Both the position numbers and the translations under genes were made by a program. Of a stretch of DNA of 64,000 bases, positions 18,963-61,606 are shown piece after piece. Origin of the DNA: Rhodospirillaceae bacterium. GTDB lineage: Bacteria > Pseudomonadota > Alphaproteobacteria > Rhodospirillales > Rhodospirillaceae. Each line of letters starts with the position of its first letter. The stretch's first letter is position 1. The notes under the pieces are model-generated. The model saw only the letters and a program-made list of their open reading frames with translations. It made no database searches and was not told the DNA's origin. Location: the NCBI GenBank assembly GCA_004297485.1, contig SCTM01000145.1, forward strand, positions 1 to 64,000, in the 5' to 3' direction.

Positions 18963-19257
18963 TCTGTCGTGTCACTCGTTCCTTAAACGCCCTTAGTTCC
19001 GAGGACGACATAACAACGTCTTGATCCATAATGATCTCATCTCGAAAATCAGACCGGGAACAATAAAACCCGTTCTTGCGGTTCAGGTGATGGATCCGGC
19101 CGTTGCGATTTGCCGATCGAAGCATCGGTCAGGAATATCTCGGGACAGCTTCGCCGACACGACAGCTGAGCAAACAGCAGATCTGTGCACACCTCATGAC
19201 GGCAGCTCTGATGTAAAGTATAGAGCTTCCATACCGATTCCCCAGGCCAGGACCATA

Positions 19258-20544
19258 ATGAGTATCGTCGAGAACAAAACACTCATTCGCATTCGCTCCG
19301 AGGTTTGCAACACAGTGCTGGTTTGGCTTCTGGCATGCTCGCTCTTCGCTTTGGGGATTGTGATTTTCCGGCAGCCCGCGTTCATCTCACCGCGCATGAT
19401 TGTTGTGAGTGGCGGGCTTGTCGCTTTTCTTGCCGCTTTGACGCTGCTGAGACGGAACCTGCCCTACGGTGTGCGCGCCGGAAGCGTCATCGTATTGGGC
19501 CTGGCCGGAGGCCTCACAAAGCTTGTGTGGTTTGGCGCGCCATACGGTTTTGTTCCCCTCGCGGCCACAATCATCTGGGGGGCATTGTTTTTCGGAGAGC
19601 GCGGCGGCATCACGGTTGCCGTCATGGTATTTTCATCGCTTGCCGTAACTTATTTCAGCTTCGTGCATGGGCTTATTCCGCCACCAGGAATCTTGCCCTC
19701 GCCTCTGGCGGCGACGACGTGGTTGACCAGCGCCGCGGTACTCGCGGCGACAACGCTTGGTCCCTTGATCGCGATTTCGAGGGTCGGTCAGCGCTTGGAT
19801 CTCGAGCGGCAGCATGCCGAAGCGACAAGCGCCGCCAAGTCAGGGTTCCTCGCGACCATGGGGCACGAATTGAAGACGCCCCTCAACGCAATCATGGGAT
19901 TTGCTGAAGCCCTGGCGATGGGATACGCGGGGCCACCGGATTCAGCACGTTACCGCGAATACACCGGCCATATCCACCGCAGTTCTCAGCATTTGTTGAC
20001 GATCGTGGATGATTTGCTGGAGCTCGCGCGCGTTGATGCGCTTCAGCGCAAAGCCGTGGTCGAAGAACTTGAGGTTGCCGTTGAGGTGAGAAAGGCGGTC
20101 GCGACCGTCGAAAGATTGTCGGCCGCGGCGGGCCTAGAGCTGCGGCAGCATCTTGACGACAACCTTCCACCGATGACCGCTGATCTGACACTGTTTCAGC
20201 AAATTATGATCAACCTGCTTTCAAATGCCATCAAGTTCACGCCCGCGGGAGGTGCCGTGACGGTGACTGCCGGGGCAAGCGCCGGCTATATCCGCATTGA
20301 GGTGAGCGATACGGGCATCGGCATACCGGCGGACCAGATTCCAAAGCTTGGTCAGCCATTTCGCCAGGTGAACCACGCGACGGTGCATCCCCAGGGAGGT
20401 AGCGGACTTGGCTTGGCGCTGGCGAAGTCCTTTACCGAATTGCAGGGCGGAAAATTATCAATTCGCAGTGAACCCGGCGTGGGCACGACGGTGGCGATCG
20501 ATCTTCCAATGGCCGCGCGTCTGCCGGTTCAGCACCTTAGGTAG
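19258..20544 (+). CDS. Membrane sensor histidine kinase, cognate regulator unknown
   Basis: 428 residues from the ATG at 19258 (MSIVENKT), chosen because AGGA lies just upstream and the long open frame before it has no family character. About five or six hydrophobic helices (residues 20-185) form a membrane sensor with no large periplasmic loop. Then HisKA with H203 in FLATMGHELKTPLNAIMGFAEAL, and a HATPase with N-box NLLSNAIKFTPAGG, DTGIGIP and a GSGLGLALAKSF G-box. All catalytic motifs are intact. No response regulator gene is adjacent. It lies between ptsI and a DivL-like pseudokinase, and its text seems less GC-rich than its neighbours. Confidence 0.88.
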   Translation: MSIVENKTLIRIRSEVCNTVLVWLLACSLFALGIVIFRQPAFISPRMIVVSGGLVAFLAALTLLRRNLPYGVRAGSVIVLGLAGGLTKLVWFGAPYGFVPLAATIIWGALFFGERGGITVAVMVFSSLAVTYFSFVHGLIPPPGILPSPLAATTWLTSAAVLAATTLGPLIAISRVGQRLDLERQHAEATSAAKSGFLATMGHELKTPLNAIMGFAEALAMGYAGPPDSARYREYTGHIHRSSQHLLTIVDDLLELARVDALQRKAVVEELEVAVEVRKAVATVERLSAAAGLELRQHLDDNLPPMTADLTLFQQIMINLLSNAIKFTPAGGAVTVTAGASAGYIRIEVSDTGIGIPADQIPKLGQPFRQVNHATVHPQGGSGLGLALAKSFTELQGGKLSIRSEPGVGTTVAIDLPMAARLPVQHLR

Positions 20545-20870
20545 GTCACCCCAATATCGCAGCGGGGGACATACAGCGAGAAGTTAACACCAAAAGTCCC
20601 ACAAGCGGCCGTCGGAAATGTAAACCCGAGCGTCATATTTCAATTTGTACGCTCTGTCCCTTCGCTTTCCGCCAATTGGCTTGCCGCGGCAAGGTTGCGG
20701 CCTTTAACACCCTTTCAGGGTCCAAGGTGTGCGTTTACTAAAACTAATGTCCGCCGGCTTGGCTGCCAGGCGTGCGTGGCGGGCGCGCATGCGTTAGACT
20801 CATCCCGGAATTGAGCGTTGATCTCGGCTGTCCAGGGCCCGTTAACTCTTGGCAGCCGGTAGGGGGTTGT
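20545..20870. other. Gene-free gap before the DivL-like gene
   Basis: 326 nt between the two kinase genes. A small hairpin (ACCCTTTCAGGGT near 20709-20721) is visible, and the right part should contain the promoter of the next gene. No repeat family member or RNA gene was recognised. Confidence 0.4.
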
Positions 20871-23357
20871 GTGTTAGGTCAGGCGGGGATTCTGCTGACG
20901 GCACCATGGATCATGGGGATCGTCGCGGTTGTCGTGATCGTGCCGCCAGCGGCGTGGCTGCTGTGGCGTCAACACGGGCATTGGCGGCGCGCCGAGGACG
21001 CCCGCAATCACGCATTATATGTCCGCAAATCCCTGGAATGCGCCCTGGAGACTGCCCCCGAAGGCTACTTTGCCTGGTTCAGCGTCCCGGCATCAACGAA
21101 ACCAGACTCCATTGCCGACGGCGCCGACGACGGTCTGCCGGCCCCATGGCGCCGGAACGGCGAGAAACGCACCGTCGAGGTCTGCTCCCGACGGCTCGCC
21201 GTGCTGCTCGATCTCTTCCGTGGCATGGCGGCGGATTTCGAGCAGGTCGTGGACGGGTTTGACCGACCCTCCCAAGAAAAGCTGCGGACCGCGATCGTCG
21301 CGTTGAGATCCGACGGCACCGGGTTTCAGATCGCGCTCGACCACAGCATCACCGGCCGGCACCTGCAGGCGCGTGGCTTGCGCGCCGTGGACGACGACGG
21401 CAACTTCATGGCCGACGTCATGTGGATGGGCGATGTCACCGAGGGCGTGGCGGCGGTCGATACCCTCACCGAGGAAACCGGCGCGCTCCGCCGCGAGCGC
21501 GACCTGCTCCGCGCCGCCATGGATGGCCTCACCGAGCCGGTTTGGCTGCGCGATGATGATCTTTCCCTCATCTACTGTAACGCCGCATACGTGCGCGCCG
21601 TCGACGGCCGGGACGCAGGCGATGTGGTGGCCCGGGGACGGGAACTGGCGCCACGGGTTTCCGTGCGCGAGGCGCGCGCCCTGGCCGCCGCCGCACGGGC
21701 TTCGGCGGAGACGCGGCGGGCACCGTTCCATATGGTGATCGACGGCAGCCGCCGCCTTATGGAAGTGACGGAAGCGGCGGTGAGTGTTCCCGAGGTGACG
21801 GCCACGGCCATCGACCGCGAGGCTGCGCCGCTGTTTTCCGACGGCAGCGGCCGCCTGACGGCGGGGCTCGCCTACGACATCACGCGCCAGGAGGAGCTTG
21901 AAGTCCGGCTCAAACGCGAAGCCGCGGCTCATGCCGACGTGCTGGAAAGATTGGGCACGGCCATCGCGGTTTTCGGCCCGGACACCCGGCTGGCGTTCTT
22001 CAACACCGCCTTCTCGCGCCTCTGGAGTCTCGATCCCGTCTGGCTCAGGGATAGTCCCAGTTACACAACCGTGCTGGACGCCCTACGGGCCGACCGGCGC
22101 CTGCCCGAAGTCGCGGACTTTCCGGCTTATAAGGAAAAGGAGTTGATGCGCTTCAACTCCCTGATTGAGCCCCTTGAAGATGTGCTGCATCTGCCTGACG
22201 GCGGAACCTTGCGCCGGGTCGTGGCGCCCCATCCCATGGGCGGACTGCTCACCACCTATGAGGACGTCACCGACAAACTCGCGCTGGAACGCTCCTACAA
22301 CACCCTGATCGCCGTGCAGCGGGAAACCATCGACAATCTTCAGGAAGCCGTGGCGGTGTTCGGCGCCGACGGCCGCCTGCGCCTCGCCAATCCGGCGTTC
22401 GCGAGCCTGTGGGACTTAAGCATCGCCGCGCTGCGTGAGAGTCCGTCCATGGCCGAAGTGATAGAAGCATTCCGTCACTTCTTCGAGGACCCGAACATCT
22501 GGGCACGCCACCGCGGCGTCATGCTCACGGCGCTGGACGCGGATCGTGAGCGGGCGACGCAGCAGGGGCGCGTCATCCGCAGCGACGGGTCGGTGCTGGA
22601 ATTCGTGTCCGTGCCCCTACCCGACGGCGGCGTGCTGTTCTGCTACAACGATGTGTCAGCCCCCGAGCGGATTGCTCAGACCCTGCGTGGCAAAGCCGAA
22701 GCCCTGAGCATCATGGAAAAACTGCGCACGGCCTTTATCTCGCACGCCGCCGATGAACTTCAGGGCCCGCTGGGAGCGATCGCGCGGTCGGCGGGCAAGG
22801 TCGCCGCCCGAGCGGAGCCCGGTCTGCGCGGCACCGCCGCCGAAATTCTGGCCGCGGCCGAGGACATCAAGGCGTTGCTCGCGGACATCAACGACATCGC
22901 CGCCCTGGAAGCGGGGCAGCAGACCCTGCGTCTGGATACGGTGGACATGGCCGCCATTGTGACACGTGTCACGGCCATGACCCGGGAAGCCGTGCGCCAT
23001 CGCAACGTCGTCCTCAACGTGGCGTGTCCGGCCAATATCGGGTGGATTGTCGGCGACCCCCAAAGGCTGAAGCAGACCTTGTTCTATCTCGTGACCACGG
23101 CCGTGACCGCCGCCGGCGAAGGTGACGTGTTCCTCAGCCTGGATCGTTCGGGCGGCGACGGTGGACAGATCGACATCACCCTGCGCTATGTGGCGGCGGC
23201 GGCTCTCGATCATGGCGCGGGCGCGCTTGAACTTCATTTCGCGCGACGCATGGCGGAGTTGCACGGCGGTAACGTTGAGGTGGAGACGAGCGGGCCCGAT
23301 GCCCTGGTGGTCTGCCGCCTTCCCGCCGGACCGATGCGCGCCGCGTCGGTCGGCTAG
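20871..23357 (+). CDS. PAS-domain histidine-kinase-like protein lacking kinase residues (DivL-like)
   Basis: 828 residues from the GTG at 20871, preceded by AGGGGG; an ATG 33 codons earlier adds nothing family-like. One N-terminal TM helix (about 10-30), then several PAS-like domains (about 220-600, e.g. LTEPVWLRDDDLSLIYCNAAY, VAVFGADGRLRLANPAF). In the dimerisation helix the H-box reads ISHAADELQGPLGAI: aligned to SHELRTPL, the phospho-acceptor position is D628, not His. The ATPase domain follows DPQRLKQTL but has Thr (T743) at the N-box Asn, no DxGxG and no GLGL loop. It should be catalytically dead. It lies just upstream of tsaE-amgK-murU-addBA. Caulobacter DivL has similar architecture and a Tyr at this position; equivalence is inference. 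Confidence 0.85.
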   Translation: MLGQAGILLTAPWIMGIVAVVVIVPPAAWLLWRQHGHWRRAEDARNHALYVRKSLECALETAPEGYFAWFSVPASTKPDSIADGADDGLPAPWRRNGEKRTVEVCSRRLAVLLDLFRGMAADFEQVVDGFDRPSQEKLRTAIVALRSDGTGFQIALDHSITGRHLQARGLRAVDDDGNFMADVMWMGDVTEGVAAVDTLTEETGALRRERDLLRAAMDGLTEPVWLRDDDLSLIYCNAAYVRAVDGRDAGDVVARGRELAPRVSVREARALAAAARASAETRRAPFHMVIDGSRRLMEVTEAAVSVPEVTATAIDREAAPLFSDGSGRLTAGLAYDITRQEELEVRLKREAAAHADVLERLGTAIAVFGPDTRLAFFNTAFSRLWSLDPVWLRDSPSYTTVLDALRADRRLPEVADFPAYKEKELMRFNSLIEPLEDVLHLPDGGTLRRVVAPHPMGGLLTTYEDVTDKLALERSYNTLIAVQRETIDNLQEAVAVFGADGRLRLANPAFASLWDLSIAALRESPSMAEVIEAFRHFFEDPNIWARHRGVMLTALDADRERATQQGRVIRSDGSVLEFVSVPLPDGGVLFCYNDVSAPERIAQTLRGKAEALSIMEKLRTAFISHAADELQGPLGAIARSAGKVAARAEPGLRGTAAEILAAAEDIKALLADINDIAALEAGQQTLRLDTVDMAAIVTRVTAMTREAVRHRNVVLNVACPANIGWIVGDPQRLKQTLFYLVTTAVTAAGEGDVFLSLDRSGGDGGQIDITLRYVAAAALDHGAGALELHFARRMAELHGGNVEVETSGPDALVVCRLPAGPMRAASVG

Positions 23358-23396
23358 GGCTAAAACGCTAGAGCATGATTTGATGAAGTTGCATAT

Positions 23397-23497
23397 CCCC
23401 CTCACCGCCTCGCCCATTCTTGATCCGGGCGACATTGTCGCCCGGTTGGGCTCGGCACCGTCTGCCCGCTGGGGAGAGGGTTGGCGCGAGGGAGAGA
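23397..23497 (+). repeat. CCCCTCACC-type dispersed repeat, copy 1
   Basis: Shares with 32327-32394, in the same orientation, the 16-mer CCCCCTCACCGCCTCG, then GGCTCGGCACC and GGGGAGAGGGTTGG. This copy is longer because of an insert containing a GGGCGACATTGTCGCCC palindrome (23427-23443). It sits between the DivL-like gene and tsaE. Repeats of this general look are common between alphaproteobacterial genes. Confidence 0.75.
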
Positions 23498-23532
23498 ACA
23501 CGCTTCAACGTGAAGCGATCAGGCCCTAGCGC

Positions 23533-24003
23533 ATGCGGCGTTTCCGGCTGGAGACTGCGGAACAGACCGAGGCCCTGGGCGCCGCCCTGGCGACGTTGGC
23601 CCGTGCGGGCATGGTGTTCACCCTCGCCGGCCCCCTGGGCGCCGGCAAAACCTGCCTCGCCCGCGGATTGATCACAGCCCTGAAACCCGCGATGGCCGAG
23701 GAAATCGTCAGCCCGACGTTCACGCTCGTACAGACCTATGATACCGCCGCCGGACCGGTTTGGCATTTCGACCTCTACCGCGTAAAACACGCCGAGGATG
23801 TCATTGAACTCGGTCTCGAGGACGCCCTCGGCGATGTCGCCGTGATCGAATGGCCGGATCGCCTGGGCCGGTTTCTGCCCGCCGACCGTATCGACGTGAC
23901 CCTCACTCAAGCCGGCGATGGGCGCGAGGCCGAGATCAGCGGTCAGGGGAAATACGCGGAGGCTGTGGAAGCTTGGAAAACAAAACTGCGGGAGACGAAG
24001 TGA
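23533..24003 (+). CDS. tsaE: tRNA threonylcarbamoyladenosine biosynthesis ATPase TsaE
   Basis: A 156-residue P-loop ATPase needed with TsaD and TsaB to make t6A37 on ANN-decoding tRNAs. GPLGAGKTCLARG is the Walker A motif, SPTFTLVQTYD the switch segment, and WHFDLYRVKHAEDVIELGLED the conserved core ending in the EWPDR motif. The length is normal. It heads the amgK-murU-addB-addA block. Confidence 0.95.
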   Translation: MRRFRLETAEQTEALGAALATLARAGMVFTLAGPLGAGKTCLARGLITALKPAMAEEIVSPTFTLVQTYDTAAGPVWHFDLYRVKHAEDVIELGLEDALGDVAVIEWPDRLGRFLPADRIDVTLTQAGDGREAEISGQGKYAEAVEAWKTKLRETK

Positions 24004-59071: not shown

Positions 59072-61606
59072 ATGACCTCCGACGGCAACCGGCACCTACC
59101 GCTCTCGACGCGCACCCCTCACCTTTCCCGATCGGTCTCCCTCGGAAAACTCGCGTTCGTCGCAGCGGTGGTTTTCACGACCGCCTATGTGGCGATCACG
59201 CTGACAAACCACACGCAACGGGTGGCGGTCATCTGGGTGGCCAACGCCTTCCTTTTGTCAATCGTCACGCGCGCCCCGCGCGGCACGTGGGCAATCTACC
59301 TTCTGACCGGATACCTCGCCAACATTGCCGCCGATATGGCGACCGGCGATTCTTTCCTGTTCGCCACAGCGCTATCCTTTTGCAATACGGTCGAGGTTCT
59401 GGTCGCCGCGGCGCTGATTGCAAGAAACTTCGACGGCGCGCCGGATCTGTCGCGCGCGTCGGAACTCTTCAAATTCGTCCTGATCTGCGGCGGCATCGCG
59501 CCGGCCGTCAGCGGTATGTTGGCATGTGTTGTCTTCGTTGTTCTCAGGCATGCTCAGCCAGGACCGGTGTTTCAAACATGGTTCCCTGCCGACGCGCTGG
59601 GAATGGTGACGATCACGCCGCTGCTCCTCATGATGCGGCGCAACGAACTGGTGGAACTCACGCGCCCTGCGCATCTCAAGGACACCCTGGCTATTCTTGG
59701 TCTGGTGACCGCCATGGCGATGGGAGTTTTCTTCCAAAACAGCTTCCCGGTTCTGTTCCTCATGTCACCGGTCATGACCCTGACCGCCCTTCGTCTGCGC
59801 TTCGTCGGGTCCGCCATCGCCATCGCCATTGTCGCCGCCTTTGCCGTCCCCCTGACGGTCTTGGGGCATGGCCCTTTGTCGCTGGTCCCTGATTCATCCC
59901 TGACCGAACGAATCCTGTTGCTGCAATTGTTTCTCGCCGTCCTCGGCTGCACGACTTTGCCTTTGGCGGCAATGTTCGTGACCCGGAAGCGGCTGGAGCA
60001 GGAAGCCGTCGCCGCCCGCCGCGCCGCCGAGCAGGCGAACACGGCAAAGTCCACGTTTCTCCACACCATGAGCCACGAACTACGGACCCCGATGACTGGG
60101 ATCATGGGGATGTGCCACCTGCTGCTCGCGGGCGAGCAATCCGCCGGTCAACGGCACATCACTCAGATCCTGGAACGCTCGGCGCGGTCGTTCCTTGAAC
60201 TCCTGAACGACATTCTCGATATCGCAAAAATCGAGGCCGGCCACATGGAGATCGAGGCCGCGCACTTCAGACTTTCGTACGTCATGCAGGACGTGGAGGA
60301 ATTGTTCGCCCCGGCCATGGCCCAAAAGGGTCTGAACTTCAAGATCGACTGCGCGCCGGGAGAATACGACGCGGTGATCGGCGATTCACGGCGTCTGCGG
60401 CAAATCCTGTTTAATCTTGTCGGCAATGCGCTCAAGTTCACGGACCGCGGCACCGTCGCGATACGCAAACACCAGACGCCTCAATCTGACGGCAGCGTCA
60501 TATGCGAGTTCGAGGTTGAAGATACCGGCATTGGCATGTCGGAACAGGGCAAGCGCCGCCTGTTTCGCGCCTTCGAGCAAGAGGATGGCTCCATCTCGCG
60601 GCGTTACGGCGGCACCGGATTGGGACTCTACATCTGCAAACAGCTCGTCACCGCGATGAACGGGAGCATTCGCGCCGAGAGCAATCTGGGTCAAGGTTCG
60701 AAATTCATGGTTACGTTGCGCCTCAAGCAGTGTGCGGAGGCGGACGTCCCCGATCGAAATTCCCTGGCCCCCGCTTTCAACGGCACGTTCCTGCCCGACA
60801 TGAAAATCGATGTCTTGCTGGCGGAGGATAACTCGACCATCCAACTCCTGGTCACGCAGATGCTGGAATTGTCGGGCCATGTGGTGACGGTGGCGGAGAA
60901 CGGCATGCAGGCGACTGAACGGGCTGCGGCGAAGAAATTCGATATCATTCTCATGGACATGCAGATGCCGGTCATGGCAGGCACGGAGGCCGTTCGCAAT
61001 ATTCGCAGCGGAAGCGGCCCCTCCGCGAATACGCCAATTATCGCGCTTACCGCCGATGCGATTCTCGAGAATCGGAAGCTTTTCCTCGACGCCGGATGCG
61101 ATGCGGTCGTGACCAAGCCCATCGAGTGGGATATTCTCGCCCAGACAATCCGAGCGTTTATTGGATCTCCGCGCCCCATGTCATCCGTAAGCGATAATGC
61201 GAGCACTCATGTGCCGGTTGCCGTGAATGCGGACGGAACGGAAAGCCGCGCGGCCTTATTCGATCCGGCGCGGATTGAGGAACTGCAAAACGATCTCGGC
61301 CCCGCCACGACGCGCGAGCTATTGGCTCGGTGCCTTGTTGCCATGGGTCAGCAGCTTTCCGACATCAGGCTCAGCACCTCGATGGGCGATCCGGCCAAGG
61401 CCAAGCGTGCCGCGCATGATCTGAAGGGTATCTGTGCTCAGTTCGGGGCCGCCCATGCCAGCGAGATCGCGCGGCGGATTGAAGTGGAACTGGAAGATGC
61501 CAACGCCATTGAAGCCGTCATTTCCGAACTCACCGAAAGCGTCGCGCAGGCAAGCGCCAGGATTCAGGAAATCCATAACCAACTGAAATCCCCGCAGGGG
61601 GCGTGA
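59072..61606 (+). CDS. MASE1 hybrid histidine kinase with receiver and Hpt domains
   Basis: 844 residues. An N-terminal MASE1-like sensor of about eight TM helices (residues 25-310), with VIWVANAFLLSIVTR and WFPADALGMVTITPLLL. Then HisKA with H335 in FLHTMSHELRTPMTGIMGM, HATPase (NLVGNALKFTDRG, DTGIGM, GGTGLGLYICKQL), a receiver domain (about 577-700) with D629 in IILMDMQMPVMAG, and a C-terminal Hpt domain with H782 in AAHDLKGICAQFG. All phosphorelay residues are intact. No separate response regulator is adjacent. Converges with the GT39-like gene. Confidence 0.92.
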   Translation: MTSDGNRHLPLSTRTPHLSRSVSLGKLAFVAAVVFTTAYVAITLTNHTQRVAVIWVANAFLLSIVTRAPRGTWAIYLLTGYLANIAADMATGDSFLFATALSFCNTVEVLVAAALIARNFDGAPDLSRASELFKFVLICGGIAPAVSGMLACVVFVVLRHAQPGPVFQTWFPADALGMVTITPLLLMMRRNELVELTRPAHLKDTLAILGLVTAMAMGVFFQNSFPVLFLMSPVMTLTALRLRFVGSAIAIAIVAAFAVPLTVLGHGPLSLVPDSSLTERILLLQLFLAVLGCTTLPLAAMFVTRKRLEQEAVAARRAAEQANTAKSTFLHTMSHELRTPMTGIMGMCHLLLAGEQSAGQRHITQILERSARSFLELLNDILDIAKIEAGHMEIEAAHFRLSYVMQDVEELFAPAMAQKGLNFKIDCAPGEYDAVIGDSRRLRQILFNLVGNALKFTDRGTVAIRKHQTPQSDGSVICEFEVEDTGIGMSEQGKRRLFRAFEQEDGSISRRYGGTGLGLYICKQLVTAMNGSIRAESNLGQGSKFMVTLRLKQCAEADVPDRNSLAPAFNGTFLPDMKIDVLLAEDNSTIQLLVTQMLELSGHVVTVAENGMQATERAAAKKFDIILMDMQMPVMAGTEAVRNIRSGSGPSANTPIIALTADAILENRKLFLDAGCDAVVTKPIEWDILAQTIRAFIGSPRPMSSVSDNASTHVPVAVNADGTESRAALFDPARIEELQNDLGPATTRELLARCLVAMGQQLSDIRLSTSMGDPAKAKRAAHDLKGICAQFGAAHASEIARRIEVELEDANAIEAVISELTESVAQASARIQEIHNQLKSPQGA

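Follow-up and report, generated by a model that had tools for sequence, protein, structure and literature searches.

What is left for a kinase-derived regulator to do when its kinase part has decayed and the partner which that part is thought to read is still encoded in the same genome? The question is raised by a divL-like gene in the window, as we call the whole 64,000-nucleotide stretch of Rhodospirillaceae DNA analysed here. DivL serves as a model for bacterial pseudokinases, and the retention of its kinase part is put down to a role in reading phosphorylated DivK (DivK~P). A folded but dead histidine kinase (HK) module next to an intact DivK does not fit the rationale of the published rule, by which DivL goes without its kinase domain only where DivK is gone.

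The gene begins with a GTG codon and encodes 828 amino acids in an open frame; an alternative in-frame GTG at 20772 would give a product of 861. Four PAS families score above the Pfam gathering threshold, and both HisKA (13.1 bits, cut-off 26.9) and HATPase_c (17.6 bits, cut-off 26.4) fall below theirs. Structure prediction, proposed by the first-pass annotation as a check on the ATP pocket, gave an AlphaFold2 model with a mean pLDDT of 86.1 and a pTM of 0.42, which leaves the orientation of the domains uncertain. The model consists of a long N-terminal helix, four PAS domains and a DHp hairpin, and of a CA fold whose lid has given way to a loop of nine residues (Table 1). Together with Pfam, it bears out the earlier description of one transmembrane helix (assigned by eye), several PAS domains and an HK module.

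Table 1. Features of the divL locus, in window coordinates
Feature	Position	Strand	Basis
divL-like gene: transmembrane helix, four PAS domains, degenerate HK module	20871..23357	+	ORF, Pfam, PDB match, AlphaFold2
N-terminal transmembrane helix, about residues 11-34	20901..20972	+	hydrophobic stretch by eye, within model helix 11-60
PAS 1, residues 65-188	21063..21434	+	AlphaFold2 model
PAS 2, residues 219-336 (Pfam PAS 213-242)	21525..21878	+	Pfam, AlphaFold2 model
PAS 3, residues 361-466, highly conserved	21951..22268	+	model, conservation
PAS 4, residues 489-595 (PAS_7 487-600), highly conserved	22335..22655	+	Pfam, model, conservation
DHp helical hairpin, residues 596-682	22656..22916	+	AlphaFold2 model
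His625, three residues ahead of the acceptor column	22743..22745	+	alignment
Asp628, acceptor column (Tyr550 of Caulobacter DivL)	22752..22754	+	alignment
CA (ATPase-fold) domain without catalytic boxes, residues 686-820	22926..23330	+	alignment, model, fold comparison
Thr743, at the N-box Asn column	23097..23099	+	alignment
ATP lid remnant, residues 775-783	23193..23219	+	model, alignment
tsaE, downstream neighbour of divL	23533..24003	+	TIGR00150

The assignment to the DivL lineage, made at first from architecture and position, is well supported. The best match to a solved structure is Caulobacter DivL (4q20, E 1.9e-13; the next match is at 2e-06), and in the fold comparison the same structure lies within the tied top (Z 17.8, 212 residues aligned, rmsd 8.9; top Z 18.6), with the VIA-align rows mainly spanning the HK part of the model. 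A tree of the HK module, of the kind called for in the first-pass annotation, separates 62 DivL rows, 4q20 and the query included, from 12 kinases of the same genome with an SH-aLRT of 99; our trees were made by a quick method with SH-aLRT as their sole support, and the long-branch warnings in the HK tree touch rows other than the query. Homologues are widespread. With a threshold of E <= 1e-20, divL matches were obtained in 54 of 61 genomes (the window's own, 2 of the same genus, 34 of the same family and 24 of the same order) and in 44 of the 47 of good quality. For comparisons among close relatives we used a clade of 32 rows, picked by eye from the alignment; the smallest branch side that holds it in the PAS3-4 tree has 34 rows, the listed ones plus L024 and L094 (SH-aLRT 97). 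A tsaE match follows divL in all 32 clade loci, the window's included, where it scores over the TIGR00150 cut-off and is followed by AmgK-like and MurU-like genes, each below its cut-off, and then by addB. The chance that this is an ordinary PAS kinase paralogue is negligible; nothing was found in its favour, and the HK-module tree, which does not group the query with the 12 ordinary kinases sampled, is joined against it by the 4q20 match, the tsaE neighbourhood and the next best match within the genome, which scores 41 bits against 1824. A chance reading frame is ruled out by the wide presence of homologues and by dN/dS values of 0.09 to 0.31 against a relative of the same genus.

Some features of the surrounding records deserve mention in their own right. 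The 175 bp between divL and tsaE (23358-23532) contain a GGGGAGAGGG-type stretch that resembles a dispersed repeat; it occurs in a single copy in the window with up to 3 mismatches allowed, and no inverted repeats were reported between the two genes. The 30 nearest named loci carry titles that include Rhodospirillaceae, Alphaproteobacteria and, oddly, Candidatus Marinimicrobia. The last title stands on metagenome-assembled records (L066, L067, L074, L076 and others) that hold this alphaproteobacterial divL-tsaE locus, and it looks wrong.

The H-box (residues 622-637) reads FISHAADELQGPLGAI, and residue 628, which aligns with the acceptor column, is Asp in place of the phospho-acceptor His, just as had been noticed from the sequence. 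The DPQRLKQTL stretch is kept at residues 729-737, Thr743 takes the place of the Asn in the N-box (GDPQRLKQTLFYLVTTAV), and neither a G1 nor a G2 box (DxGxG, GLGL) is recognisable in the aligned window protein, so that this part of the earlier reading also stands. Across the alignment columns of the lid and G2 helix (775-795) the window's protein has 21 residues, which is also the median of the clade (range 18-26); in the 88 sequences whose acceptor is aromatic or His, the median is 39. The position of the ExxT/N phosphatase motif reads E629-L-Q-G632. The acceptor His, the N-box Asn, the G1 and G2 boxes and any above-threshold HisKA or HATPase_c match are thus absent, and since nearly the whole lid and the Thr/Asn of the phosphatase position are missing as well, the window's protein should be neither kinase nor phosphatase. 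An active kinase with His625 as its acceptor, the result that the first-pass annotation had set against its own reading, was not found and is very improbable: the residue is His in all three species of the genus, but in the sister group it is mostly Asn and sometimes Ser, and the protein lacks the N-box Asn, both G boxes and the lid. We therefore rejected His625 as acceptor on account of the missing ATP site. According to the accessible part of Childers 2014 (PMC4211667), Caulobacter DivL retains its remaining HK boxes; with the N, G1 and G2 boxes gone, and most of the lid with them, the degeneracy seen here exceeds that of the Caulobacter protein, as had been claimed. A purely allosteric or scaffold role, also proposed at the outset, is what we would infer from these losses.

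The significance of the Asp itself turns out to be smaller than its presence suggested. In the order, 54 loci from 53 other genomes have Tyr in the acceptor column 16 times, His 8, Glu 7, Phe 7, Ala 6, Asp 2, and Thr, Val and Gly once each, with five gaps; three of the gapped loci (L025, L054 and L062) run off a contig, the HK part of the L062 genome lying on a separate contig (L065), and those of G005 and G006 are truly short. Outside the order, Tyr occupies the column in 53 of 68 genomes. The 32 clade rows comprise 13 Ala, 6 Glu, 5 Asp (that of L017 being doubtful because its H-box is unrecognisable), 3 Val, 2 Ser, 2 Thr and 1 Phe, and both other species of the genus have Glu rather than Asp. 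An acidic residue is common to all three genus members and to a seven-row group (L018, L019, L085, L086, L088, L091 and L092). Mapped on the PAS3-4 tree, in which 135 of the 142 rows were scored, an aromatic residue requires 11 changes of state and an acidic one 5. Judged from these sequences, Asp628 is one state of a drifting column: the residue stood up to inspection, its reading as a special feature did not, and a conserved phosphomimic is unsupported by a column that runs through Ala, Glu, Asp, Val, Ser, Thr and Phe. A non-Tyr state is already on record in the available text of Childers 2014 (PMC4211667), where Magnetospirillum magneticum DivL has Ala in this column.

If the catalytic residues are gone, has the module that carried them been released from selection? 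Mean identities per bin in the clade range from 0.63 to 0.93 in PAS3-4 and from 0.28 to 0.76 in DHp, and where PAS3-4 stands at 0.63-0.75, DHp is at 0.28-0.29 and CA at 0.31. The order is reversed among 39 motif-bearing DivLs, whose most populated bin of identity, with 523 of the 741 pairs, has DHp at 0.61 and PAS3-4 at 0.46, although only 6 motif-bearing pairs fall within the clade's identity range and the equal-distance comparison is thin. Between the window's DivL and its same-genus relative L012, dN/dS is 0.09 in PAS3-4, 0.17 in DHp and 0.31 in CA. Many dS values are near or above 1. For the 108 of 496 clade pairs in which every dS is below 1.2, the three regions have medians of 0.12, 0.39 and 0.48; DHp exceeds PAS3-4 in 106 of the 108 pairs and CA does so in all 108. 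The HK module is therefore still subject to purifying selection, weaker than in PAS3-4 but real.

These values bear on the possibility that the HK module is a vestige being lost, as in the Rhodobacterales, with the PAS part alone mattering. Going by the medians, DHp and CA have a three- to fourfold higher dN/dS than PAS3-4, the CA domain is dispensable in Caulobacter according to the portion of PMC4211667 available to us, and PAS-only DivLs do occur in the order, in G005, where DivK is split by a frameshift, and in G006, which has no DivK match. Nevertheless, the clade medians stay below 1, even though single DHp pairs reach 2.27, and the 31 clade loci besides the window's each have one unbroken frame over the match (L020 and L022 begin at a contig end, and L094, which is split over two frames, is outside the clade list), so that we consider a mere vestige rather improbable. 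The G005 frameshift (L251, G005:C12:29800-31400) could mark a recent loss or stem from faulty assembly.

The partners with which a DivL would work are present. The genome encodes CtrA (NF045991, 401.5 bits, over the cut-off), ChpT (PF10090, 34.8 bits, over the cut-off), a CckA-like kinase (L141, 670.5 bits against a cut-off of 1000) and DivK (best PDB match 1m5t, 4.8e-55), and CckA-like matches at E <= 1e-120 were obtained in 55 of the 61 genomes. Two further kinases lie on the same contig as divL. One, immediately upstream (19021-20544, +), is DivJ-like, with several hydrophobic stretches, the motif HELKTPLNAI and 181.7 bits to the NF050805 DivJ model (cut-off 1000). At E <= 1e-15 it has no match in the 6 kb upstream of the same-genus loci L066 and L093; in other loci the upstream span was mostly 1.5 kb, with weaker kinase matches in L021 and L034, and its best relative, 46% identical over part of the length, is in G002 on a contig other than that of divL. 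The other is a hybrid histidine kinase (59072-61606, +) with a canonical HELRTPMTGI H-box and a receiver domain.

The presence of DivK is what sets the clade apart. In the accessible parts of the literature, DivL without a kinase domain always goes with the absence of DivK (Brilli 2010, PMC2877005), DivK-less alphaproteobacteria frequently have no DHp-CA part (Childers 2014, PMC4211667), and the Rhodobacterales have lost both DivK and the kinase part of DivL (PMC9430884). Our own survey, which scored DivK as a match at E <= 1e-25 to the DivK of the window's genome with no tree, and some of whose genomes are incomplete (G034 is 66% complete), recovers this pattern outside the order. With Tyr, Phe or His as acceptor, DivK is found in 55 genomes and missed in 2 (the exceptions G080 and G065, which keep Tyr), and with another acceptor or no HK module it is found in 2 and missed in 9 (Fisher p 6e-8, kinship ignored). 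This class set comprises 68 of the 79 genomes outside the order with a match at E <= 9.3e-88; the eleven left out are G079, G158, G196, G092, G186, G167, G198, G200, G109, G105 and G128, several of which have split or cut matches. Degenerate DivLs from outside the order include those at L203, L205, L226, L231, L237 and L239, in 6 of 6 cases in genomes with no DivK match; L203 and L205 pair in the HK-module tree, on long branches.

Within the order the association loosens. Here a module was called degenerate unless it had Tyr, Phe or His in the acceptor column, Arg, Lys or Gln at 631 and Pro at 633, a rule that also labels L026, in which the acceptor alone is changed, and L015, whose acceptor is Phe and whose residue 631 is Glu. 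In the genomes of 95% completeness or more, DivK accompanies all 21 intact modules and 16 of 19 degenerate ones; where no module was seen, DivK is present in G005 and missing in G006 and in G026, whose DivL runs off a contig. Four less complete genomes (82-94%) have an intact module and no DivK match, and G055 was scored as module-less although its HK part sits on another contig. In the clade, a DivK match free of inner stops was obtained in each of the 11 genomes whose degenerate module is whole. The DivKs of the ten other genomes are 73-95% identical to that of the window's genome, and in an alignment that took in all of the 11 but that of G025 the proteins look normal. Set against the class set, where the figure is 2 of 11, this gives a Fisher p of 2e-4 with kinship ignored; the class-set rule, which scores the acceptor or a missing module alone, makes the clade count 10 of 10. 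The explanation that DivK was lost and DivL then decayed fits the class set and fails in the clade. Nor was a second canonical DivL that might read DivK found by H-box pattern: the search for a Tyr/Phe-type H-box ending in Thr-Pro, a pattern that misses other endings, gave one match in the genome, FELSTP, in a context that is not kinase-like. What is new is the degenerate HK module beside an intact DivK, against the pattern outside the order. A non-Tyr DivL with DivK is not wholly new, and in a literature search that mostly covered papers outside subscription the one case of a degenerate module beside intact DivK was the one implied for Magnetospirillum.

Can this DivK still be read? Excerpts of PMC11500502 state that the DivL PAS domains are needed for CckA binding and propose the HisKA and CA domains as the docking surfaces for DivK~P, and in the available text of PMC4211667 the affinity of Caulobacter DivL for DivK~P is about 11 uM and R553A, T557N, Y562A and H579E disrupt DivK binding. 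The residues of the window's protein that align with R553, T557 and Y562 are Q631, G635 and S640, all three different (H579 falls where the alignment has gaps). Among the class-set DivLs the first position is Arg in 59 of 68, the second Asn in 48 and Thr in 12, and the third Phe in 58 and Tyr in 3, so that only the Arg is close to fixed. It was this change of the docking residues, despite an intact DivK in the genome, that the first-pass annotation missed and by which its reading is amended. One could imagine instead that the interface has been re-engineered, with the HK module sensing DivK~P or another receiver through new contacts and Asp or Glu taking the place of Tyr550. The retention of DivK in the 11 genomes and the purifying selection on the module are what one would expect from such an interface, as is the acidic column of the genus and of the seven-row group, which has kept the Arg of R553 at 631. 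This alternative is nonetheless unlikely, since the known docking residues are altered in the window's protein, the column is Ala, Val, Ser or Thr in other clade members, some of them with DivK, and the ten clade DivKs show by eye no obvious matching change.

The reading that we prefer, with a probability of about 0.65, is that this divL orthologue encodes a nucleotide-independent PAS regulator of CckA, most likely one that does not read DivK~P in the known way. We infer a PAS-based CckA regulator because the part predicted to bind CckA is the best conserved and the part that would read DivK~P is not. The protein would be a scaffold anchored in the membrane whose PAS domains control the CckA-ChpT-CtrA phosphorelay, while its HK module would persist, folded and under selection, as a domain for dimerisation or regulation. 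With the Caulobacter-type docking residues changed, DivK~P would most likely go unread in the known way even though the genome keeps an intact DivK; in that case CckA would be controlled without DivK, or be linked to it by another route. Several observations pull the other way: a fully kept DivK could still act on DivL through the changed interface, the docking residues vary even among ordinary DivLs and one clade group keeps the Arg, and outside the clade six order genomes (G011, G029, G023, G036, G039 and G057) were scored as degenerate with DivK present, the first four of which suggest that decay need not have a single consequence. More tentatively, and at somewhat less than even odds, the whole clade may have cut or rewired the link between DivK and a nucleotide-free DivL, with an unchanged DivK rerouted to CckA or left with a lost job. 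A clade that combines an intact DivK with a decayed but still selected HK part sets the two roles of DivL apart in nature, and allows the assumption that the kinase part is kept for reading DivK~P to be tested.

RetS of Pseudomonas acts on another kinase, GacS. Its HK fold is among the top matches of the model (6dk7, 7n0e), and the PDB title of 7n0e is that of a RetS-GacS complex. Magnetospirillum magneticum DivL resembles the window's in having a non-Tyr residue in the acceptor column and DivK in the group, and differs in having Ala (PMC4211667) where the window's protein has Asp; the available text of Brilli 2010 (PMC2877005) places a PleC-DivK system in the Magnetospirillum group. The short PAS-only DivLs of the Rhodobacterales, as described in the accessible parts of PMC9430884 and PMC2877005, are alike in having abandoned the kinase part and retained the PAS part, but there the HK module and DivK are both absent, whereas the window's module is folded in the model and DivK is present. 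Caulobacter crescentus DivL (4q20) shares the transmembrane helix, PAS domains and HK module, the non-His acceptor, and a genome with CckA, DivK, ChpT and CtrA. According to the excerpts of PMC4211667, it has Tyr550, the other HK boxes and DivK~P binding, whereas the window's DivL has Asp, has lost the N, G1 and G2 boxes with most of the lid, and carries changed docking residues.
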